From Natronosalvus vescus (GTDB lineage: Archaea; Halobacteriota; Halobacteria; Halobacteriales; Natrialbaceae): 64,000 nt of DNA. Below the pieces are notes generated by a model, which was given only the letters and a program-made list of their open reading frames with translations, did no database searches and had not been told where the DNA came from. The translations under genes were made by a program, and so were the position numbers. This document shows, piece by piece, positions 21,988 to 29,628 of this stretch. Positions within the stretch are counted from its first letter, which is position 1; every line of letters starts with the position of its first letter. The DNA lies in assembly GCF_023973145.1 (NCBI RefSeq), contig NZ_CP099546.1, forward strand, positions 124,001 to 188,000, given 5' to 3'.

Positions 21988-22683
21988 TCAGGGATCCAGA
22001 AGTTTCGACTCCGCCTTTCGGAGGTGCTCGAGGAGCGTCGCCTTCGCGATTCCGAGTTCGTCGGCTAACGCAGCCGAAGTGATCCTGCGAGGCAAATCGT
22101 AGTAGCCGTGGCAGCGTGCAGCCTCGAACACTTCACGCTGGCGCTCGGTGAGACGGTCGTCGAGATCGGCGACAGTTGCGACGGAGGAACCGGTTCCCGT
22201 AACCGTGATCTCCGCGTTCATCTCCCGGCGCACTTCGTCGAGACACTCCTGGAGATCGACGTCGGCTTCCGCGAGCACCGTCCACCGCTCTCGGCCATTA
22301 CGAATGCGAATCGGCGCATCGGGGATCAACCCTCGAGAGACGAGGGCCTCGTGGATGCTCTCGTCCGATCGGTAGGTCACCAGCAACTCGCGGGTCGCGT
22401 TCCCCGCCGTAATCGCTTTGGAAGCGCCGAACGCGTGATCCATCTCGTGGACGGCGTCAGTAAATGGCGAGGCGCGCGTGGCGGCGACGACGTCGTCGAT
22501 CGTGGCGACGTCGTCTCCATACGCGACGATTCGTGCTTTCACCGCGTTCTCGAGGTCGTAGACTCCGTATGCGATCAGCCCGGCATCCGTTGCTTCTGTC
22601 ACCTGGAGCGTCCAGCAGTCCGGATGCCAGATATCTAACCGGATCCGTTCGGCACGATTCGAAACGCGTGACTCTTCCTGCAT
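21988..22683 (-). CDS. Bat-type helix-turn-helix regulator
   Basis: The ATG at 22683 (MQEESRVSNRAERIRLDIWH) gives 231 residues. The C-terminal 50 residues are a HTH_10 (bacterio-opsin activator) domain: LTERQREVFEAARCHGYYDL, PRRITSAALADELGIAKATL and LEHLRKAESKLL. The N-terminal part is a sensor-like alpha/beta domain of the type fused to HTH_10 in many haloarchaeal regulators. It sits 55 nt beyond the end of the YkvI-like permease gene, on the same strand, and beside the D-glutamate genes. It is the obvious candidate regulator of that island (inference from position). Confidence 0.9.
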   Translation of the reverse strand: MQEESRVSNRAERIRLDIWHPDCWTLQVTEATDAGLIAYGVYDLENAVKARIVAYGDDVATIDDVVAATRASPFTDAVHEMDHAFGASKAITAGNATRELLVTYRSDESIHEALVSRGLIPDAPIRIRNGRERWTVLAEADVDLQECLDEVRREMNAEITVTGTGSSVATVADLDDRLTERQREVFEAARCHGYYDLPRRITSAALADELGIAKATLLEHLRKAESKLLDP

Positions 22684-22738
22684 GCCATACACTACCACAT
22701 CACTCGCTCACCTCACGAAAAACATTGTGGTCGGTGGG

Positions 22739-23950
22739 CTACGCGTTCGTCCAGAACTCGACCTTCCAGTCGGGGTTGAATATCCGGTAGACGCCGACGG
22801 TCAACAGTGGGATCGCGAACAGCGCAATGAAGAAGTACGCCATCAGGGTGTACCCCTGGGCGACCAGTGCGATGATCCCGAACTGCGAGAGCGCCATTGC
22901 CCCAACAAGAATGCCGACGCCGAGCGCGCCGCGGTGGATTCGCGACAGACCCTCCACGTCCTCCATCGGGCCAGCATCGACCTCCTCGACATCGGCGTCG
23001 ATTCGATCGAGGATGGCGTGAATAAGTCCGACGCTGGTTTCGATTAACGTCCAGCCGACGACGATCCCGTATAACACGATGATCGTCGTGCCGCCGACCG
23101 ACTCCAGCATCGGAAGCCACGGGACGGGCGCTCCCATCACCGACTCTTGTGGGTAAAAGCCCATCATCGCCACGTACGACAGCGCGAACGGGAGGCTCAT
23201 CAGCGTTCCCGCCAGCAAGCCGGCCGTCAGCGTCTCTTTGCGCGTCGTCTGCCGGTGGAGAGCGAAGAATACCGCCGGGAAGACAGCGAGGTTGTAACCG
23301 ACGTAGAGGATACCGGACTGCACGACCGCCCCGGTGCTCGTGTCGTCTGCGTAGGACGTGTCGCTGGCGGCGAACGTTGACGTGATGTCGCCCCACGTCG
23401 AAACGATCACGATCCCCGCAAAGAGGATGAACGCGACGTACAGGCCGGCGCTCCCGATCGTTTTGAACTCCTCGATCAGCCAGGCACCGTAGTAGGCAAG
23501 AACGCCGACGACGGCGATGATCGCGACGATGCCGGCGAGGTATGGGACGCCGAGGGTTTCCTCCATGATTTCGCCCGCTGCGGAGGCCATGATGGCGATG
23601 ATAAGAATCGCCATCGCCAGGAACAGAAGATCGAACAGCGGCCACGCCTTCCAGATCAGTTCCTTGATGAAGGACTTGTAGTTGTAGACGCCGAACACCC
23701 GCGCCAATTCGAACGTCAGGACGGCCATCACCGAAAACCCGATCCAGATGCCGATCACGGCGATCCAGCCCGACGCGCCGTACTGTGCACCGTACTCAAC
23801 GATCTCCCGACCAGTCGCATACCCGCCGCCGATGAGCACCGACTGGAGGATGATCGCCGGCAACACGATACTCATGAACCAGCTGCCAAGCAGGTCGTTC
23901 AGGATTGCCGTCACACCCTGTTCATCCTGATCCACCGTCTCTCGAGACAT
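22739..23950 (-). CDS. YkvI-like permease of the APC superfamily
   Basis: A longer open frame continues upstream through the dgcN region, but the true start is the ATG at 23950 (MSRETVDQDEQGVTAILNDL), giving 403 residues. About ten helices are seen, beginning with a glycine-rich GGGYATGREIVEYGAQYGA typical of the COG3949/YkvI group of APC-like transporters. Others include IWIGFSVMAVLTFELARVFG and ILYVGYNLAVFPAVFFALHR. It is divergent from dgcN with an 88-bp shared regulatory gap. Uptake of D-glutamate or a related amino acid is the natural guess from context; the substrate is not shown by the sequence. Confidence 0.9.
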   Translation of the reverse strand: MSRETVDQDEQGVTAILNDLLGSWFMSIVLPAIILQSVLIGGGYATGREIVEYGAQYGASGWIAVIGIWIGFSVMAVLTFELARVFGVYNYKSFIKELIWKAWPLFDLLFLAMAILIIAIMASAAGEIMEETLGVPYLAGIVAIIAVVGVLAYYGAWLIEEFKTIGSAGLYVAFILFAGIVIVSTWGDITSTFAASDTSYADDTSTGAVVQSGILYVGYNLAVFPAVFFALHRQTTRKETLTAGLLAGTLMSLPFALSYVAMMGFYPQESVMGAPVPWLPMLESVGGTTIIVLYGIVVGWTLIETSVGLIHAILDRIDADVEEVDAGPMEDVEGLSRIHRGALGVGILVGAMALSQFGIIALVAQGYTLMAYFFIALFAIPLLTVGVYRIFNPDWKVEFWTNA

Positions 23951-24016
23951 ATGTTCACACAGGACAGTCGAACTAGTAATACACACCCCCTCACATGGGA
24001 GGTGGTGGCGTTTTTT

Positions 24017-24036
24017 CCCTCCCCTCGAAAGGAGGG
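24017..24036 (+). promoter_or_regulatory. Hairpin that could mask the dgcN ribosome-binding site
   Basis: The Shine-Dalgarno-like ggaggg (24031-24036) lies two bases before the ATG at 24039 and pairs perfectly with ccctcc (24017-24022), loop cctcgaaa. A run of six T precedes the stem. If transcribed, the stem would hide the ribosome site, so translation of dgcN may be controlled. A strong ribosome site is itself unusual in haloarchaea, where leaderless starts dominate. Confidence 0.4.
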
Positions 24037-24038
24037 TT

Positions 24039-25082
24039 ATGAACCTTCGTAACGAGTTCGAAACGCCGGTTTCGGCCGTCGTTCTCGCGGAAGGCGAGTT
24101 CGGTTCGACCGGTGGTAAAACCGCCAACGGCGTGGTAATGCACAGCGAGATATTCGACGCCGCCGTCGTCGTCGACTCGGAGACAGCCGGCTCGACCGCC
24201 GATGCGGTTCTCGGTCGACCGGACGCGGCGTCCGTCCCCGTCGTCGCGACAATGGACGAGGCGCTTTCGCGTGCACCCGAGGCCGAAGTGCTGGTAATTG
24301 GCGTCGCGCCGGCCGGTGGGAGCCTCCCCGAGTCGTGGATCGACGACATCCGGACGGCCATGCAGGCGGGCTGTGACGTCGTCTCGGGCCTGCACGTCTT
24401 CCTCTCCGAACGCGACGAGTGGATCGAACTCGCCGACGAAGCGGGCGTTCGGATCTTCGACGTGCGAAAACCGCCCGCCGAGGACGACCTCCGCGTCGGG
24501 GACGGGAGCGTCGACGACGTCGACGCCGACGTCGTGTTGACGATGGGAACCGACTGCGCCGTCGGCAAGCGGACGACGACGTTCGAACTGTACCGCGCCG
24601 CCCGCGAGGCCGGCCTCGACACCGGCTGGGTCGCCACCGGCCAGACCGGAATCATGGTCGGGGCCCACCGCGGCGTCGTGATCGATCGCGTGCCCGCGGA
24701 CTTCACCGCGGGAGTCGTCGAGGATCTCGTCACCGACGTCGCCGAACACCACGACATCGTCTTCGTCGAGGGACAAGCGTGTCTCACCCACCGGGCTTAC
24801 TCAGGGGTGACGCTCTCGATCCTCCACGGTGCGTGGCCCGACGCCGTCGTTCTAGTCGATGACCCGGATCGTAGCGGGCGAACCCACTTCGAACAGTGGG
24901 CAGTGGCCGGCGTCGAGCGGGAGGTCGAGGCGATCGAGGGGCTTTCCGACGCGACCGTCGCCGCGCTCTCGACCTGGGGCGACGCCGACGGGGCAGCGGC
25001 GCGTCACGATCTCCCCGCTGCGAACGTTTATGATGCCGACGGCCCCGCGACGTTGCTCGAGACCGTCCGGGAGGCGCTATGA
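24039..25082 (+). CDS. dgcN: DgcN-type D-glutamate N-acetyltransferase (DUF1611 family)
   Basis: The 347-residue protein belongs to the DUF1611 family, with an N-terminal Rossmann-like part (FDAAVVVDSETAGSTADAVL) and a C-terminal P-loop domain. The P-loop is GTDCAVGKRT at residues 170-179, with lysine K177; VEGQACLTHRAYSGVTLSIL lies later. In marine Proteobacteria and halophilic archaea, DgcN acetylates D-glutamate and DgcA then racemises N-acetyl-D-glutamate, allowing D-glutamate to be used. The stop overlaps the dgcA start (ATGA), the same gene order as known dgcN-dgcA clusters. The specific substrate is assumed from this clustering. Confidence 0.85.
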   Translation: MNLRNEFETPVSAVVLAEGEFGSTGGKTANGVVMHSEIFDAAVVVDSETAGSTADAVLGRPDAASVPVVATMDEALSRAPEAEVLVIGVAPAGGSLPESWIDDIRTAMQAGCDVVSGLHVFLSERDEWIELADEAGVRIFDVRKPPAEDDLRVGDGSVDDVDADVVLTMGTDCAVGKRTTTFELYRAAREAGLDTGWVATGQTGIMVGAHRGVVIDRVPADFTAGVVEDLVTDVAEHHDIVFVEGQACLTHRAYSGVTLSILHGAWPDAVVLVDDPDRSGRTHFEQWAVAGVEREVEAIEGLSDATVAALSTWGDADGAAARHDLPAANVYDADGPATLLETVREAL

Positions 25083-26143
25083 AGATTGTAGACGTTCGAG
25101 TCGAACCGCTCGACCTTCCACTGGTGGAGCCCTTCGAAATTTCCCTGGGTGAGCGAACCACCGCCAAGAACGTGGTCGTGGCCGTCGAAACCGAGGACGG
25201 GACGGTCGGCTACGGGGAGGGATCACCGATCCCGCCAGTCACCGGTGAGACGCAGGCGGCCGCCGTTGCAACCGCTCGTGCGGCAGGGGAGTTACTGGTC
25301 GGCGAAACCCTCACCAATCACCGCGCTCGAGTCCGGCAGGTTCGGGAGACGTTTCCCGGTGCCGTTTCCGCGACGCTCGCCGTCGAGACCGCGCTGCTGG
25401 ACGCCTACTGTCGCAGCCGAGAGATCCCGCTCGCAGCGCTGTTCGGCGGAGAGCCGACGCCTGTCGAAACCGACCTCACGATCCCCATCGTCGATCCGGA
25501 CGACGCTCGCGAGAAGGCCCGCCGTGCCGCCGAGCGCGGCTTCGACCACCTAAAAGTCAAAACCGGAAGCGACGTGCTCGCTGACGTAGAGCGCGTAGCG
25601 GCCGTTCGAGAGGGCGCGCCCGCGGTGGAGATCAAGGTCGACGCAAACCAGGGGTGGACGCCCGCCGAAACCGCTCGATTCGCCGATTTTTGCGCCGACC
25701 GTGGCGTCGACCTTGCGCTAATAGAACAGCCAGTTCGTGCCGACGACTTCGCCGGATTGGCCCGTTGCCGAGAGGCAGTGTCGGTGCCGGTTGCTGCCGA
25801 CGAGACCGTCTTCACTCCCGCCGACGCCGTTCGAGTCGTCCGTGAGGACGCAGCCGATGTGATCAACCTCAAGCTGGGGAAGTCCGGGCTGCTGGGTGCG
25901 CGCGACATCGTGGCGATCGCCGAGGGCGCCAATCTGGAACTGATGATCGGGTGTATGCTTGAGAGCGCTATCGGCATCCACGCCGCCGCCCACGTCGTCG
26001 CCGGAACGGGCGCGTTCTCTTATGTCGATCTCGACGGGAATCTACTGCTGGACGAGGACGTCGTCCCCGTCGAACGGATCCCCACGATCGAACCGACGGG
26101 GCCCGGCCACGGAATCGAACCGGACGCGCTTTGCGAACGGTAA
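25079..26143 (+). CDS. dgcA: DgcA-type N-acetyl-D-glutamate racemase (enolase superfamily)
   Basis: The 354-residue protein is a muconate-lactonising-type enolase-superfamily member. It has a KxK base pair at K159/K161 (FDHLKVKTGS), metal ligands at D188 (IKVDANQGW), E216 (ALIEQPV) and D241 (VAADETVF), and an opposite lysine near 265-268 (NLKLGKSGL). This is the dipeptide-epimerase/racemase subgroup, to which DgcA belongs. It is translationally coupled to dgcN. By sequence alone it could be an L-Ala-D/L-Glu epimerase, but adjacency to dgcN supports the N-acetyl-D-glutamate racemase role. Confidence 0.85.
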   Translation: MKIVDVRVEPLDLPLVEPFEISLGERTTAKNVVVAVETEDGTVGYGEGSPIPPVTGETQAAAVATARAAGELLVGETLTNHRARVRQVRETFPGAVSATLAVETALLDAYCRSREIPLAALFGGEPTPVETDLTIPIVDPDDAREKARRAAERGFDHLKVKTGSDVLADVERVAAVREGAPAVEIKVDANQGWTPAETARFADFCADRGVDLALIEQPVRADDFAGLARCREAVSVPVAADETVFTPADAVRVVREDAADVINLKLGKSGLLGARDIVAIAEGANLELMIGCMLESAIGIHAAAHVVAGTGAFSYVDLDGNLLLDEDVVPVERIPTIEPTGPGHGIEPDALCER

Positions 26144-26191
26144 CCGCCCGTCGCCGCTACGTTTTTAACCGCAGTGAACGCCGAGGGCATC

Positions 26192-26974
26192 TCACCTCGA
26201 CCCGTCACTCCCGACCCGTTTCTCGAACGACTCGCGCGCGGCGTCGCTCCCGTTCGCGAGGTAGAACATATCCGCGCCGGCGATCACGAAGTCGACGCCA
26301 ACGTCGATCCAGCGACGAATGTCCTCGTGGTCAGTCGCGAGCATTCCGACCGGCTTGTCGGCGCCGTGGGCGGCTTCCAGCACCGACTGTAACGCCGATC
26401 GGAATCGCTCGTGTTCCCACTCGCCGAAGACGCCCATCGAGGCCGAGAGATCGCCGTGGCCAACGAGGATCCCGTCGACGCCGTCGACCGAAACGATCCC
26501 CTCGGCGTTCTCAACGCCGCGTTCGGTCTCTATCTGGACGACTGTCGTCAGCTCCTCGTCCGCGCGCTCGAAGTATTCGCCGAACGTCCGCCCGTAGTCG
26601 GAGGCTCGAGCCGGAGCGGCCCCACGAAGGCCGTCGGGCGGATACCGCATCGCCTCAACGGCGGCTTCTGCCTGCTCGGCGGTTTCGATCATCGGAATTA
26701 CCAGCCCCGCGACCCCCAGGTCGAGAACGCGTTTTATCCGAGTGTGGTCGTTCCACGGGACACGAACGAGCGGCGCGACGTCCTCCTCGACCGAGTCGAC
26801 CGCTCGAAGCACGTTCTCCAGGGACTCGAGACTCACGGGGGTGTGTTCGGTGTCGATAACCACGAAGTCGAACCCGCGGGCGCAGATCTCCGCGACCGTC
26901 GGGTGGCCGATAGAGATCCAGTTCCCGACCGCGTGCGCTCCGGGTTTCGGCAGGTGGCGCGATCCGTCTTCCAT
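26192..26974 (-). CDS. HpcH/HpaI-type aldolase
   Basis: The 260-residue protein has the family's conserved stretches: FDFVVIDTEHTPVSLESLEN, PLVRVPWNDHTRIKRVLDLG, LVIPMIETAEQAEAAVEAMR, then VVQIETERGVENAEGI and GILVGHGDLSASMG, which hold the metal ligands. Such class II aldolases cleave 2-keto-3-deoxy acids to pyruvate and an aldehyde. It is convergent with dgcA and 48 bases away, so it may be cotranscribed with nothing else here. Whether it belongs to D-glutamate use is unclear; it may serve a separate sugar-acid route. High GC and low CTCGAG content match the dgc genes. Confidence 0.9.
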   Translation of the reverse strand: MEDGSRHLPKPGAHAVGNWISIGHPTVAEICARGFDFVVIDTEHTPVSLESLENVLRAVDSVEEDVAPLVRVPWNDHTRIKRVLDLGVAGLVIPMIETAEQAEAAVEAMRYPPDGLRGAAPARASDYGRTFGEYFERADEELTTVVQIETERGVENAEGIVSVDGVDGILVGHGDLSASMGVFGEWEHERFRSALQSVLEAAHGADKPVGMLATDHEDIRRWIDVGVDFVIAGADMFYLANGSDAARESFEKRVGSDGSR

Positions 26975-27636: not shown

Positions 27637-29628
27637 ATGCTCACCATAGACGATGTTCTTGGCCTCGAGTGGCCTGGCACACCCGAGTGGTCTGCGGATT
27701 CCACATTTCTCGCGGCGACGATGTACGAGGACGACGGCAACGCGTTGCTCGTTACCCAACCAGAGACGGCGGACGACGTAGACGTGGAGCCCTGGCGCGT
27801 CCGACCGAAGGGCGGGCACGTCACCGAGTTTGCGTGGTCGCCAACTGACCCCCGCCTCGTCTGTGCGACCGACGACGGACTGACAGCCCTCGTCGATCCG
27901 ACCGAACGCACCGTCTCTGAACTCGCGCACAGTCCCGATGGGGACGCTTCGCTCACCTGGTCACCCGACGGAACGAGGGTCGCCTTCTACCGCGACGGTC
28001 GACCCCGGATCCGTTCGCTCGAGGACGGAACCGAACGCGGCTTCGACGTCCCGGCGCGCGGATCCTATCTCGGCGAATCGCGTGCGTTCGCCTGGCGGGA
28101 AGAGGCAGACCACTTGCTCGCGTACCGGTTCGTGGATCGGGAAACGAAGTGCGTCGGCGTGATCGATACCGCCACCGGAGAACTCCTCTGGCGAACCCGA
28201 TCCGACGCCTCGTCGCACTCGCCGGTGTGGCTTGGCGACGGACGACTGTGCTTCGAGCGCCGCCGCGAGTACGGCGTCATCCGGGAGTTCGTCGCCGTCG
28301 ACGTCCCATCCGGAACGGAGACGGTACTCTTCCGAGAGGAGGACAACGAAACAGGAGCGCTCTCGAGTGGCTCGCCCCAGGTGTCTCCCGACGGAACCAG
28401 ACTCGCCGCGGCACTCCCGATCGACGGCTACGAACACGTCCACGTGATCGACGTTGAGAGTGGCGAGCGGACGCAACTCACCGAGGGATCGTTCGAAGAC
28501 AAGGGACTCGCGGACGACTCGCCGCGGTGGATCGACAACCGGCGGCTCGTCTTCGCCTCCAACCGCAGGGAGTCGGGACAGCGACAGCTCTACTCGGTGA
28601 CGCTCGAGGGGACGGTCACGCCACTGGTCGAGACCGTCGGGACGAACGTCGAACCGCGCCCCTCACCCGACGGGACGCGGCTCGCCTACCTCCACTCGAG
28701 TCGCGATCGATCGACCGAAATTCGCGTTCGGGCGCTCGATAACCGCGAACCTGGCACGTCCCGCGTCACGCAATCCGGCGTCGAGACGTGGCCGACGCCG
28801 CCGATCGAACCCGAACGAATCACGTTCGAGAGCGACGAGTTGGGAATCGACGGCTACCTGCTCGATCCCCGCCGAGGCGAGTCGATTCCCGACGACGCGA
28901 CGACACTCCCGGGGGTCGTGTACGTCCACGGTGGGCCGATGCGCCAGATGCGCGACGGGTTCCACCCCGACCGGTCGTACGGCCTCGCGTACGCGATCCA
29001 GCAATACCTCGCCTCGGAAGGGTACGTTGGCTTGCTCGTGAACTATCGCGGCGGCATCGGGTACGGCCGGGCGTTCAGAGGCGCGATCAGCGGGAATCGG
29101 GGTAGAGTCGAGATGGGCGATATCGTTCGTGCCGCTGAGTTCCTGTGCGACCTCGAGTACACGAGCGATTCGGTCGGGCTCTGGGGCCTCTCCTACGGTG
29201 GGTACGCGGCCCTGCAACTCCCCGGAACCCATCCCGGAGTGTTCGACGTGACCGTCAACCTCGCCGGCCTCGCCGACATGGAGAACTACCACGAGTGGGC
29301 CACCGAAACGAAGTATCCCGCGATCGGCTCGGCAGCCACCACCGTGATGGGCCGCCCACTCGAGGCGAAAGAGCGCTGGGACGACGCCAGCCCTGCCACG
29401 CACATGGATCGGTACGAAACGCCCCTCTACAGTTTCCACGGCACCGACGACCGATACGTGAACGTCGAGCAACAGGACGTCGTCGTGGAGACGCTCCTCG
29501 ACCTCGACCGGGACGTCTCGTTCGAGGCGGAGTACTACCCTGGCGAAAGTCACGTGTTCTCGAGGCGAGCGACCTGGGAGCGGACGCTCGAGAAGATCGA
29601 GACGGCGTTCGAGAGACACCTCGAGTGA
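27637..29628 (+). CDS. S9 family serine peptidase (acylaminoacyl-peptidase type)
   Basis: The 663-residue protein has an N-terminal beta-propeller region with repeated units such as TEFAWSPTDPRLVCATDD, SLTWSPDGTRVAFYRDGRPR and SPQVSPDGTRLAAALP, each in the style of a propeller blade. The C-terminal alpha/beta-hydrolase domain has the catalytic triad S519 (WGLSYGGYAA), D604 or D605 (HGTDDRYVN) and H639 (GESHVFSRR), with VVYVHGGPMRQM forming the oxyanion region. It is cytoplasmic (no signal) and cleaves short peptides. The start overlaps nothing and is divergent from the DUF234 remnant. GC is high and CTCGAG moderate, like the dgc island. Confidence 0.95.
   Translation: MLTIDDVLGLEWPGTPEWSADSTFLAATMYEDDGNALLVTQPETADDVDVEPWRVRPKGGHVTEFAWSPTDPRLVCATDDGLTALVDPTERTVSELAHSPDGDASLTWSPDGTRVAFYRDGRPRIRSLEDGTERGFDVPARGSYLGESRAFAWREEADHLLAYRFVDRETKCVGVIDTATGELLWRTRSDASSHSPVWLGDGRLCFERRREYGVIREFVAVDVPSGTETVLFREEDNETGALSSGSPQVSPDGTRLAAALPIDGYEHVHVIDVESGERTQLTEGSFEDKGLADDSPRWIDNRRLVFASNRRESGQRQLYSVTLEGTVTPLVETVGTNVEPRPSPDGTRLAYLHSSRDRSTEIRVRALDNREPGTSRVTQSGVETWPTPPIEPERITFESDELGIDGYLLDPRRGESIPDDATTLPGVVYVHGGPMRQMRDGFHPDRSYGLAYAIQQYLASEGYVGLLVNYRGGIGYGRAFRGAISGNRGRVEMGDIVRAAEFLCDLEYTSDSVGLWGLSYGGYAALQLPGTHPGVFDVTVNLAGLADMENYHEWATETKYPAIGSAATTVMGRPLEAKERWDDASPATHMDRYETPLYSFHGTDDRYVNVEQQDVVVETLLDLDRDVSFEAEYYPGESHVFSRRATWERTLEKIETAFERHLE

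Follow-up and report, generated by a model that had tools for sequence, protein, structure and literature searches.

We propose, with a probability of roughly 0.6, that the block at positions 21988-26143 of the window (the whole 64,000-nucleotide stretch of Natronosalvus vescus DNA that was analysed) forms a catabolic unit under local regulation, acting on a small compound that carries a D-residue, for which cell-wall dipeptides or N-acyl-D-amino acids would fit as well as D-glutamate or better. The block and its surroundings contain the following features:

21988..22683, minus strand: HTH_10 transcription regulator, 231 aa from ATG (PF04967, 74.4 bits)
22739..23950, minus strand: multi-pass permease, divergent from dgcN, whose family no Pfam or NCBIfam model covers
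23986..24015, plus strand: putative operator and T-rich promoter element, CCCCCTCACATGGGAGGTGGTGGCGTTTTT, with an imperfect palindrome core at 23989-24002
24039..25082, plus strand: dgcN-like DUF1611 protein (PF07755, 205.6 bits; PF17396, 106.4 bits)
25079..26143, plus strand: dgcA-like enolase-superfamily racemase/epimerase (PF13378/PF02746)
26192..26974, minus strand: HpcH/HpaI-type aldolase, a neighbour without demonstrated membership (PF03328, 130 bits)
27637..29628, plus strand: S9-family peptidase (PF00326), beyond the region covered by the first-pass annotation

The gene calls agree with the coupling of dgcN and dgcA, the divergent permease and the regulator gene after it that the first-pass annotation had described: the dgcN-like and dgcA-like genes overlap by 4 bases, the divergent gap between permease and dgcN measures 88 bases, and the HTH_10 gene lies on the same strand as the permease at a spacing of about 55 bases, from which the pair looks co-transcribed. 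A separate origin had also been suggested, on the grounds of a higher GC content and fewer CTCGAG sites than in the left flank. The island is indeed richer in GC (64.1%) than positions 1-21900 of the window (52.4%), but a 400-kb sample from the same genome has 61.9% GC and the GC3 of the island genes (0.73-0.83) falls within the genome range (median 0.786; 5-95%: 0.60-0.88), so GC gives no reason to call the island foreign. The density of CTCGAG (1.6 per kb in the island, 2.37 in the left flank, 3.92 in the genome sample and 6.75 at 30-38 kb) is uninformative on origin. It is positions 1-21900 that are atypical, with a low GC content for a genome at about 62%.

Using the window DgcN as query, we searched 391 Halobacteria genomes, scoring at most five candidates per genome, so that the DgcN counts are lower bounds. 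Window-type dgcN (at least 437 bits) occurs at no fewer than 58 loci in at least 54 genomes, including its own, and the proteins of the other genomes are 62-82% identical to the window DgcN; all remaining listed matches reach at most 271 bits, with about 47% identity. Some DgcN match is present in at least 360 of the 391 genomes, and the other-type dgcN-dgcA pair is near-universal in haloarchaea. The genome of the window has one dgcN per lineage, the second pair being located at C1:385943-387918 with neither a regulator nor a transporter nearby. For the comparison of neighbourhoods, 57 window-type and 23 other-type loci were fetched, the window itself making 58 of the former.

The window DgcN carries both the N- and C-terminal DUF1611 domains (PF17396, PF07755) and a Walker-A-like GTDCAVGKRTTT at residues 170-181, and it matches structure 7xrj, which we take to be a DgcN structure, at 122 bits. 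It scores 189.3 bits with the NCBIfam DgcN model (NF041892) and the second copy of the same genome 249, both below the cutoff of 480; with the DgcA model (NF042940) the window protein reaches 182.4 bits, under the cutoff of 400, and the protein of the second pair 246. The D-glutamate label that the first-pass annotation gave the island fits the second pair better than that of the window.

The dgcA gene follows dgcN in 48 of the 58 window-type loci and in all 23 of the other type, and an HTH_10 regulator is encoded no more than 6 kb away in 39/58 window-type loci versus 0/23 (25/37 window-type loci once those with similar upstream regions are removed); in G107, G008 and G009 the best regulator homologue is some 15-16 kb away on the same contig. 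The permease accompanies window-type dgcN in 5/58 loci (4/37 in the reduced set), other transporters there being APC permeases (8/58), NhaC-like proteins (13/58) and Dpp-type ABC permeases (10/58), and the enzymes M20 (7/58), amidohydrolase_3 (8/58) and S9 peptidases (6/58, window included). None of the neighbours scored (regulator, transporter, M20, amidohydrolase_3, S9 or aldolase) was found at the 23 other-type loci. Synteny of dgcN with the regulator and, in five genomes, with the permease is therefore real, and the idea of a complete uptake-and-use unit holds in so far as both genes recur beside dgcN, but the permease does so in a minority of loci. Within the genome of the window, the M20 and APC proteins of other islands find no close homologue (best matches 34% and 31%).

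S9 homologues are present in five other window-type loci and directly follow dgcN-dgcA-HTH_10 in L042, L048 and L051; the peptidase at 27637-29628 is a probable associate of the island. The aldolase, which had been presented as a new member of the neighbourhood, has no homologue near dgcN in any of the 57 other window-type loci and must be regarded as a chance neighbour. An archaeal alanine-dehydrogenase-like OCD gene lies near dgcN in 14 clustered loci (L043, L046, L067-L083), and in L043 and L046 it is preceded by the operator described below.

For the permease, which the first-pass annotation called YkvI-like, no match was obtained among the models of Pfam and NCBIfam, and its AlphaFold model (six sequences), with a pLDDT of 36, is too poor for use. 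Matches to it were found in nine of the 391 genomes: five, its own included, at 63% identity or more (close relatives at 63-67%), all beside window-type dgcN, two relatives at 45% and 32% that are not beside window-type dgcN, and two marginal ones. The genes around the relatives at 45% and 32% (proline racemase, FAD oxidoreductase and hydantoinase; asparaginase and M20) are compatible with amino-acid-type transport, which proves nothing.

According to its AlphaFold model (pLDDT 83.6), the HTH_10 protein has a predicted N-terminal part of two alpha/beta sub-domains and an HTH at the C-terminus. Structurally the model comes closest to 5m86 (Thermoplasma Ta1207), with Z 11.8 and an rmsd of 2.9 over 143 residues, in a match that spans regulator residues 8-168; ACT-domain proteins come far lower, at Z 7-8, a range where common folds also score. 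The term "Bat-type" applies to the HTH_10 domain (PF04967) and not to the PAS and GAF domains of Bat, for which there is no Pfam match at E up to 1; none was recognised either among the best 50 structural matches listed, although this proves nothing. NarO and DmsR are described in PMC11218638 as bacterioopsin-activator-like HTH_10 regulators that, like the window regulator, have neither PAS nor GAF. The promoter motif reported there for denitrification genes, CGAAYATDKTYG, to which no regulator is assigned, differs from the CCCTCTCATGAGAGGG-like site considered here, as do the target genes. An exclusive tie of the regulator to dgcN is ruled out, homologues being present in 229 of the 391 genomes at E up to 1e-25.

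Expectation-maximisation on 37 dissimilar dgcN upstream regions yields the motif c.cCCt.tCATG.gAGGG.GtGgggtTTTg, with a log-likelihood of 380.7 (repeat run) versus at most 110.7 in 30 dinucleotide-shuffled sets. Using a profile trained on dgcN upstream regions only, we find a palindromic CCCTCTCATGAGAGGG-like operator with a score of at least 10 in 53 of the 58 window-type upstream regions versus 0/23 of the other type. Where present it invariably begins 53-60 bases ahead of dgcN, and 0.31% of 10,253 random stretches reach the same score. Ten of 13 held-out upstream regions (less than 60% identical to any earlier one) score at least 12.7; L133, L143 and L145 are low, and L143 has a palindrome of the other class. 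The Haloarcula group has weak scores (11-13 bits), and low ones are seen in L032, L034, L035, L039 and L054. The first four of these loci have a window-type dgcN without dgcA, regulator or operator. The window site scores 27.9 (23.2 on the other strand), fills the gap between permease and dgcN and, with up to 3 mismatches allowed, occurs nowhere else in the genome of 3.84 Mb.

Each of the 39 loci whose regulator is at most 6 kb away has the motif, versus 14/19 of the loci without one (Fisher p 0.0025), and in the reduced set the counts are 25/25 versus 8/12 (p 0.0075); since those 14 have kept it with no regulator close by, another regulator could read it there. Judged by strength alone, the palindromes do not surpass those of dinucleotide-shuffled upstream regions, and palindromicity was dropped as proof of an operator; the case is built instead on shared sequence, position and co-variation. 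We consider 23986-24015 a putative operator to which the HTH_10 protein would bind. The conserved operator in the shared gap supports this protein as the local regulator, the role that the first-pass annotation had given to a Bat-type protein in place of the bacterial DgcR.

The recognition helices vary with the sites: LEHLRKAE helices pair with CCTCTCATGAGAGG-like sites, HEHLRKVE helices with CCACACATGTAAGG or CCGGACATGTCTGG, and the VLEHLRKGE helices of L042, L048 and L051 with CCCAATCATACGAGGG-like sites. In a set of 27 dissimilar loci, the distances between helices go with those between sites, with a partial correlation of 0.32 after correction for DgcN distance (6 of 5000 permutations as high) and of 0.31 after correction for the distance of the regulator N-terminal part (1 of 5000), in a permutation test that does not fully remove shared ancestry; the N-terminal part itself has no such link with the site at these loci (-0.10).

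Away from dgcN, 15 further island matches score at least 15, and 12 of them are centred 24-40 bases before the start of an ORF on the same strand (comparison by eye). The genes behind these 12 motifs encode seven APC permeases, two amidohydrolases, an OCD-family protein, a beta-lactamase-fold protein and one unknown. For the matches in L036 (permease) and L046 (OCD) the placement hinges on the chosen start codon, and that in L077 precedes no gene on its own strand. Twenty further neighbourhoods, each around a regulator homologue, were also fetched; six come from genomes with window-type dgcN and 14 from genomes lacking it. An APC-M20 pair adjoins the regulator in 10 of the latter 14, and the motif (score of at least 14) precedes the permease in eight of the 10 operons.

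The best match of the window "DgcA" is the NCBIfam model for L-Ala-D/L-Glu epimerase (NF041118), at 283.6 bits and below the cutoff of 500. All six window-type epimerases examined score 263-293 bits as L-Ala-D/L-Glu epimerase versus 160-182 as DgcA, and a paralogue from the lysA operon described below falls within 263-293 versus 160-185, while the four of the other type reverse the order (246-271 as DgcA versus 160-183); none of these proteins reaches a curated cutoff. In a tree of 61 rows, the window-type epimerases group with the lysA-operon epimerase of the same genome with a support of 100/99, the window-type clade alone having modest support (93/50); the long branches L165 and L180 are placed with the other type. 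Family score and tree thus assign the window "DgcA" to the L-Ala-D/L-Glu-type epimerases. The protein contains KVKTG at 159, a second lysine in KLGKS (265-269) and DxD at 317-319 (DLDGN 317), the lysines being, as we assume, catalytic together with the DxD motif in L-Ala-D/L-Glu epimerase, and these motifs align with 1jpm. DxD was rejected as a means of telling DgcA from dipeptide epimerases, as it is present in both clades. The L-Ala-D/L-Glu epimerases 1jpm and 2zad (presumably from B. subtilis and T. maritima) align with the window epimerase over nearly the full length, at 217.8 and 213.7 bits; unlike them it is paired with a DUF1611 protein and stays below the equivalog cutoff, its substrate being a prediction.

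The lysA-NlpC/P60-epimerase operon is located in the genome of the window, where it includes an amidohydrolase, at about 3.123-3.129 Mb of C1 (L238:6449-11631) and also occurs in L241-L246. In most cases an oligopeptide ABC transporter, an amidohydrolase_3 and an HTH_10 gene in divergent orientation accompany it. Its decarboxylase passes the diaminopimelate (DAP) decarboxylase cutoff (317.8 versus 297.9), and the operon looks like one for the use of murein peptides in haloarchaea. In 7/7 of these operons the operator found before dgcN also stands before lysA, at -52 to -55, with scores of 11.0-22.0. A separate 67% relative of the lysA-operon regulator is encoded at C1:3282161, with the window regulator as its 33% paralogue. 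NlpC/P60 homologues are present in 27 of the 391 genomes, all of which were inspected: seven have the lysA-NlpC-epimerase set, and the epimerase lineage is found in the fetched stretch of 13 and absent there in 14. In L042 and L051, NlpC/P60 comes immediately before dgcN-dgcA-HTH_10-S9. A link with D-glutamate is plausible on these grounds, and murein dipeptides would account for it no less well than the free amino acid.

In the unit that we propose, a small compound with a D-residue would enter through the permease. Together the DUF1611 protein and the epimerase would convert this residue to the L-form, and L-amino acids would be freed by a peptidase or deacylase, perhaps the S9 enzyme in the window and M20 elsewhere. 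The HTH_10 protein would sense the compound or a product and bind to the palindrome, which lies in the 88-base gap immediately before the promoter element, probably activating both permease-regulator and dgcN-dgcA. Candidate substrates are L-Ala-D-Glu-type murein dipeptides, free D-glutamate and other N-acyl-D-amino acids.

An accidental juxtaposition of dgcN-dgcA, regulator and permease appears very improbable: the transporter type does differ among loci, and the aldolase is an instance of a chance neighbour, but the regulator recurs in 39 of 58 loci, the permease is exclusive to these loci and the operator is conserved. The choice between substrates is closer. In marine bacteria, D-glutamate is N-acetylated by DgcN, the N-acetyl-D-glutamate is racemised by DgcA and a deacylase yields L-glutamate. 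This DgcN-DgcA-DgcR pathway was reportedly described by Yu et al. (ISME J 2023), who are also said to have noted DgcN and DgcA in Halobacteria. The window resembles it in its adjacent DUF1611 and enolase-superfamily genes with a local regulator and differs in its HTH_10 regulator, dedicated permease and operator, and in scores far below the equivalog cutoffs. The DgcN-DgcA pathway is mentioned in PMC10845958. That the island imports free D-glutamate through the permease and follows this route is, in our opinion, rather unlikely. Its proteins share fold families with DgcN and DgcA, 7xrj is matched, amino-acid-type permeases and an ArgE/DapE-like M20 deacylase belong to the same regulon elsewhere, and in L220 and L235 an HTH-APC-M20 set adjoins an other-type dgcN-dgcA pair; against this stand the distance from the curated cutoffs (189/480 and 182/400), the better scores of the second pair on both models and the top score of the epimerase as L-Ala-D/L-Glu epimerase.

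This last score instead suits a scheme in which "DgcA" would be a dipeptide epimerase, the S9 peptidase would split the resulting L,L-dipeptide and the DUF1611 protein would be an accessory, a possibility that we hold only tentatively. The opposite preferences of the two epimerase types (6/6 plus the lysA-operon paralogue, and 4/4), the grouping of that paralogue with the window type and the NlpC/P60 genes, directly before dgcN in L042 and L051 and accompanied by the epimerase lineage in 13 of 27 genomes, speak for it. The window island, however, has neither NlpC/P60 nor lysA, the scheme assigns no role to DUF1611, and DxD is common to both types, with no equivalog cutoff reached.

Beyond the locally regulated D-residue unit of the window, it is conceivable, at somewhat less than even odds, that an HTH_10 family with a shared, co-evolving palindromic operator governs several haloarchaeal operons scavenging bacterial D-residue compounds: window-type dgcN islands, APC permease-M20 operons and the murein-peptide operon, which would combine a peptide ABC transporter, DAP decarboxylase, NlpC/P60 endopeptidase, dipeptide epimerase and amidohydrolase. 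The window island would be one member, with a new family of amino-acid or dipeptide permeases. Such a regulon is testable, with one operator sequence, one regulator family and helix variants whose sites should differ predictably. If it exists, archaea that have no murein themselves would be equipped to live on D-amino acids and on peptides from the cell walls of bacteria, which form a large, resistant organic pool in brines, the haloarchaeal "DgcN-DgcA" annotations would split into two lineages with different likely substrates, and the permease family would gain its first functional context.

Two minor observations concern the surroundings of these genes. Between 27111 and 27956, DUF234 matches part of an ORF that overlaps the S9 gene on the opposite strand and is possibly a gene remnant. 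In L044, L050, L053, L056, L058 and L060, a second enolase-superfamily gene (37-38% identical) lies before dgcN, adjoining amidohydrolase_3.
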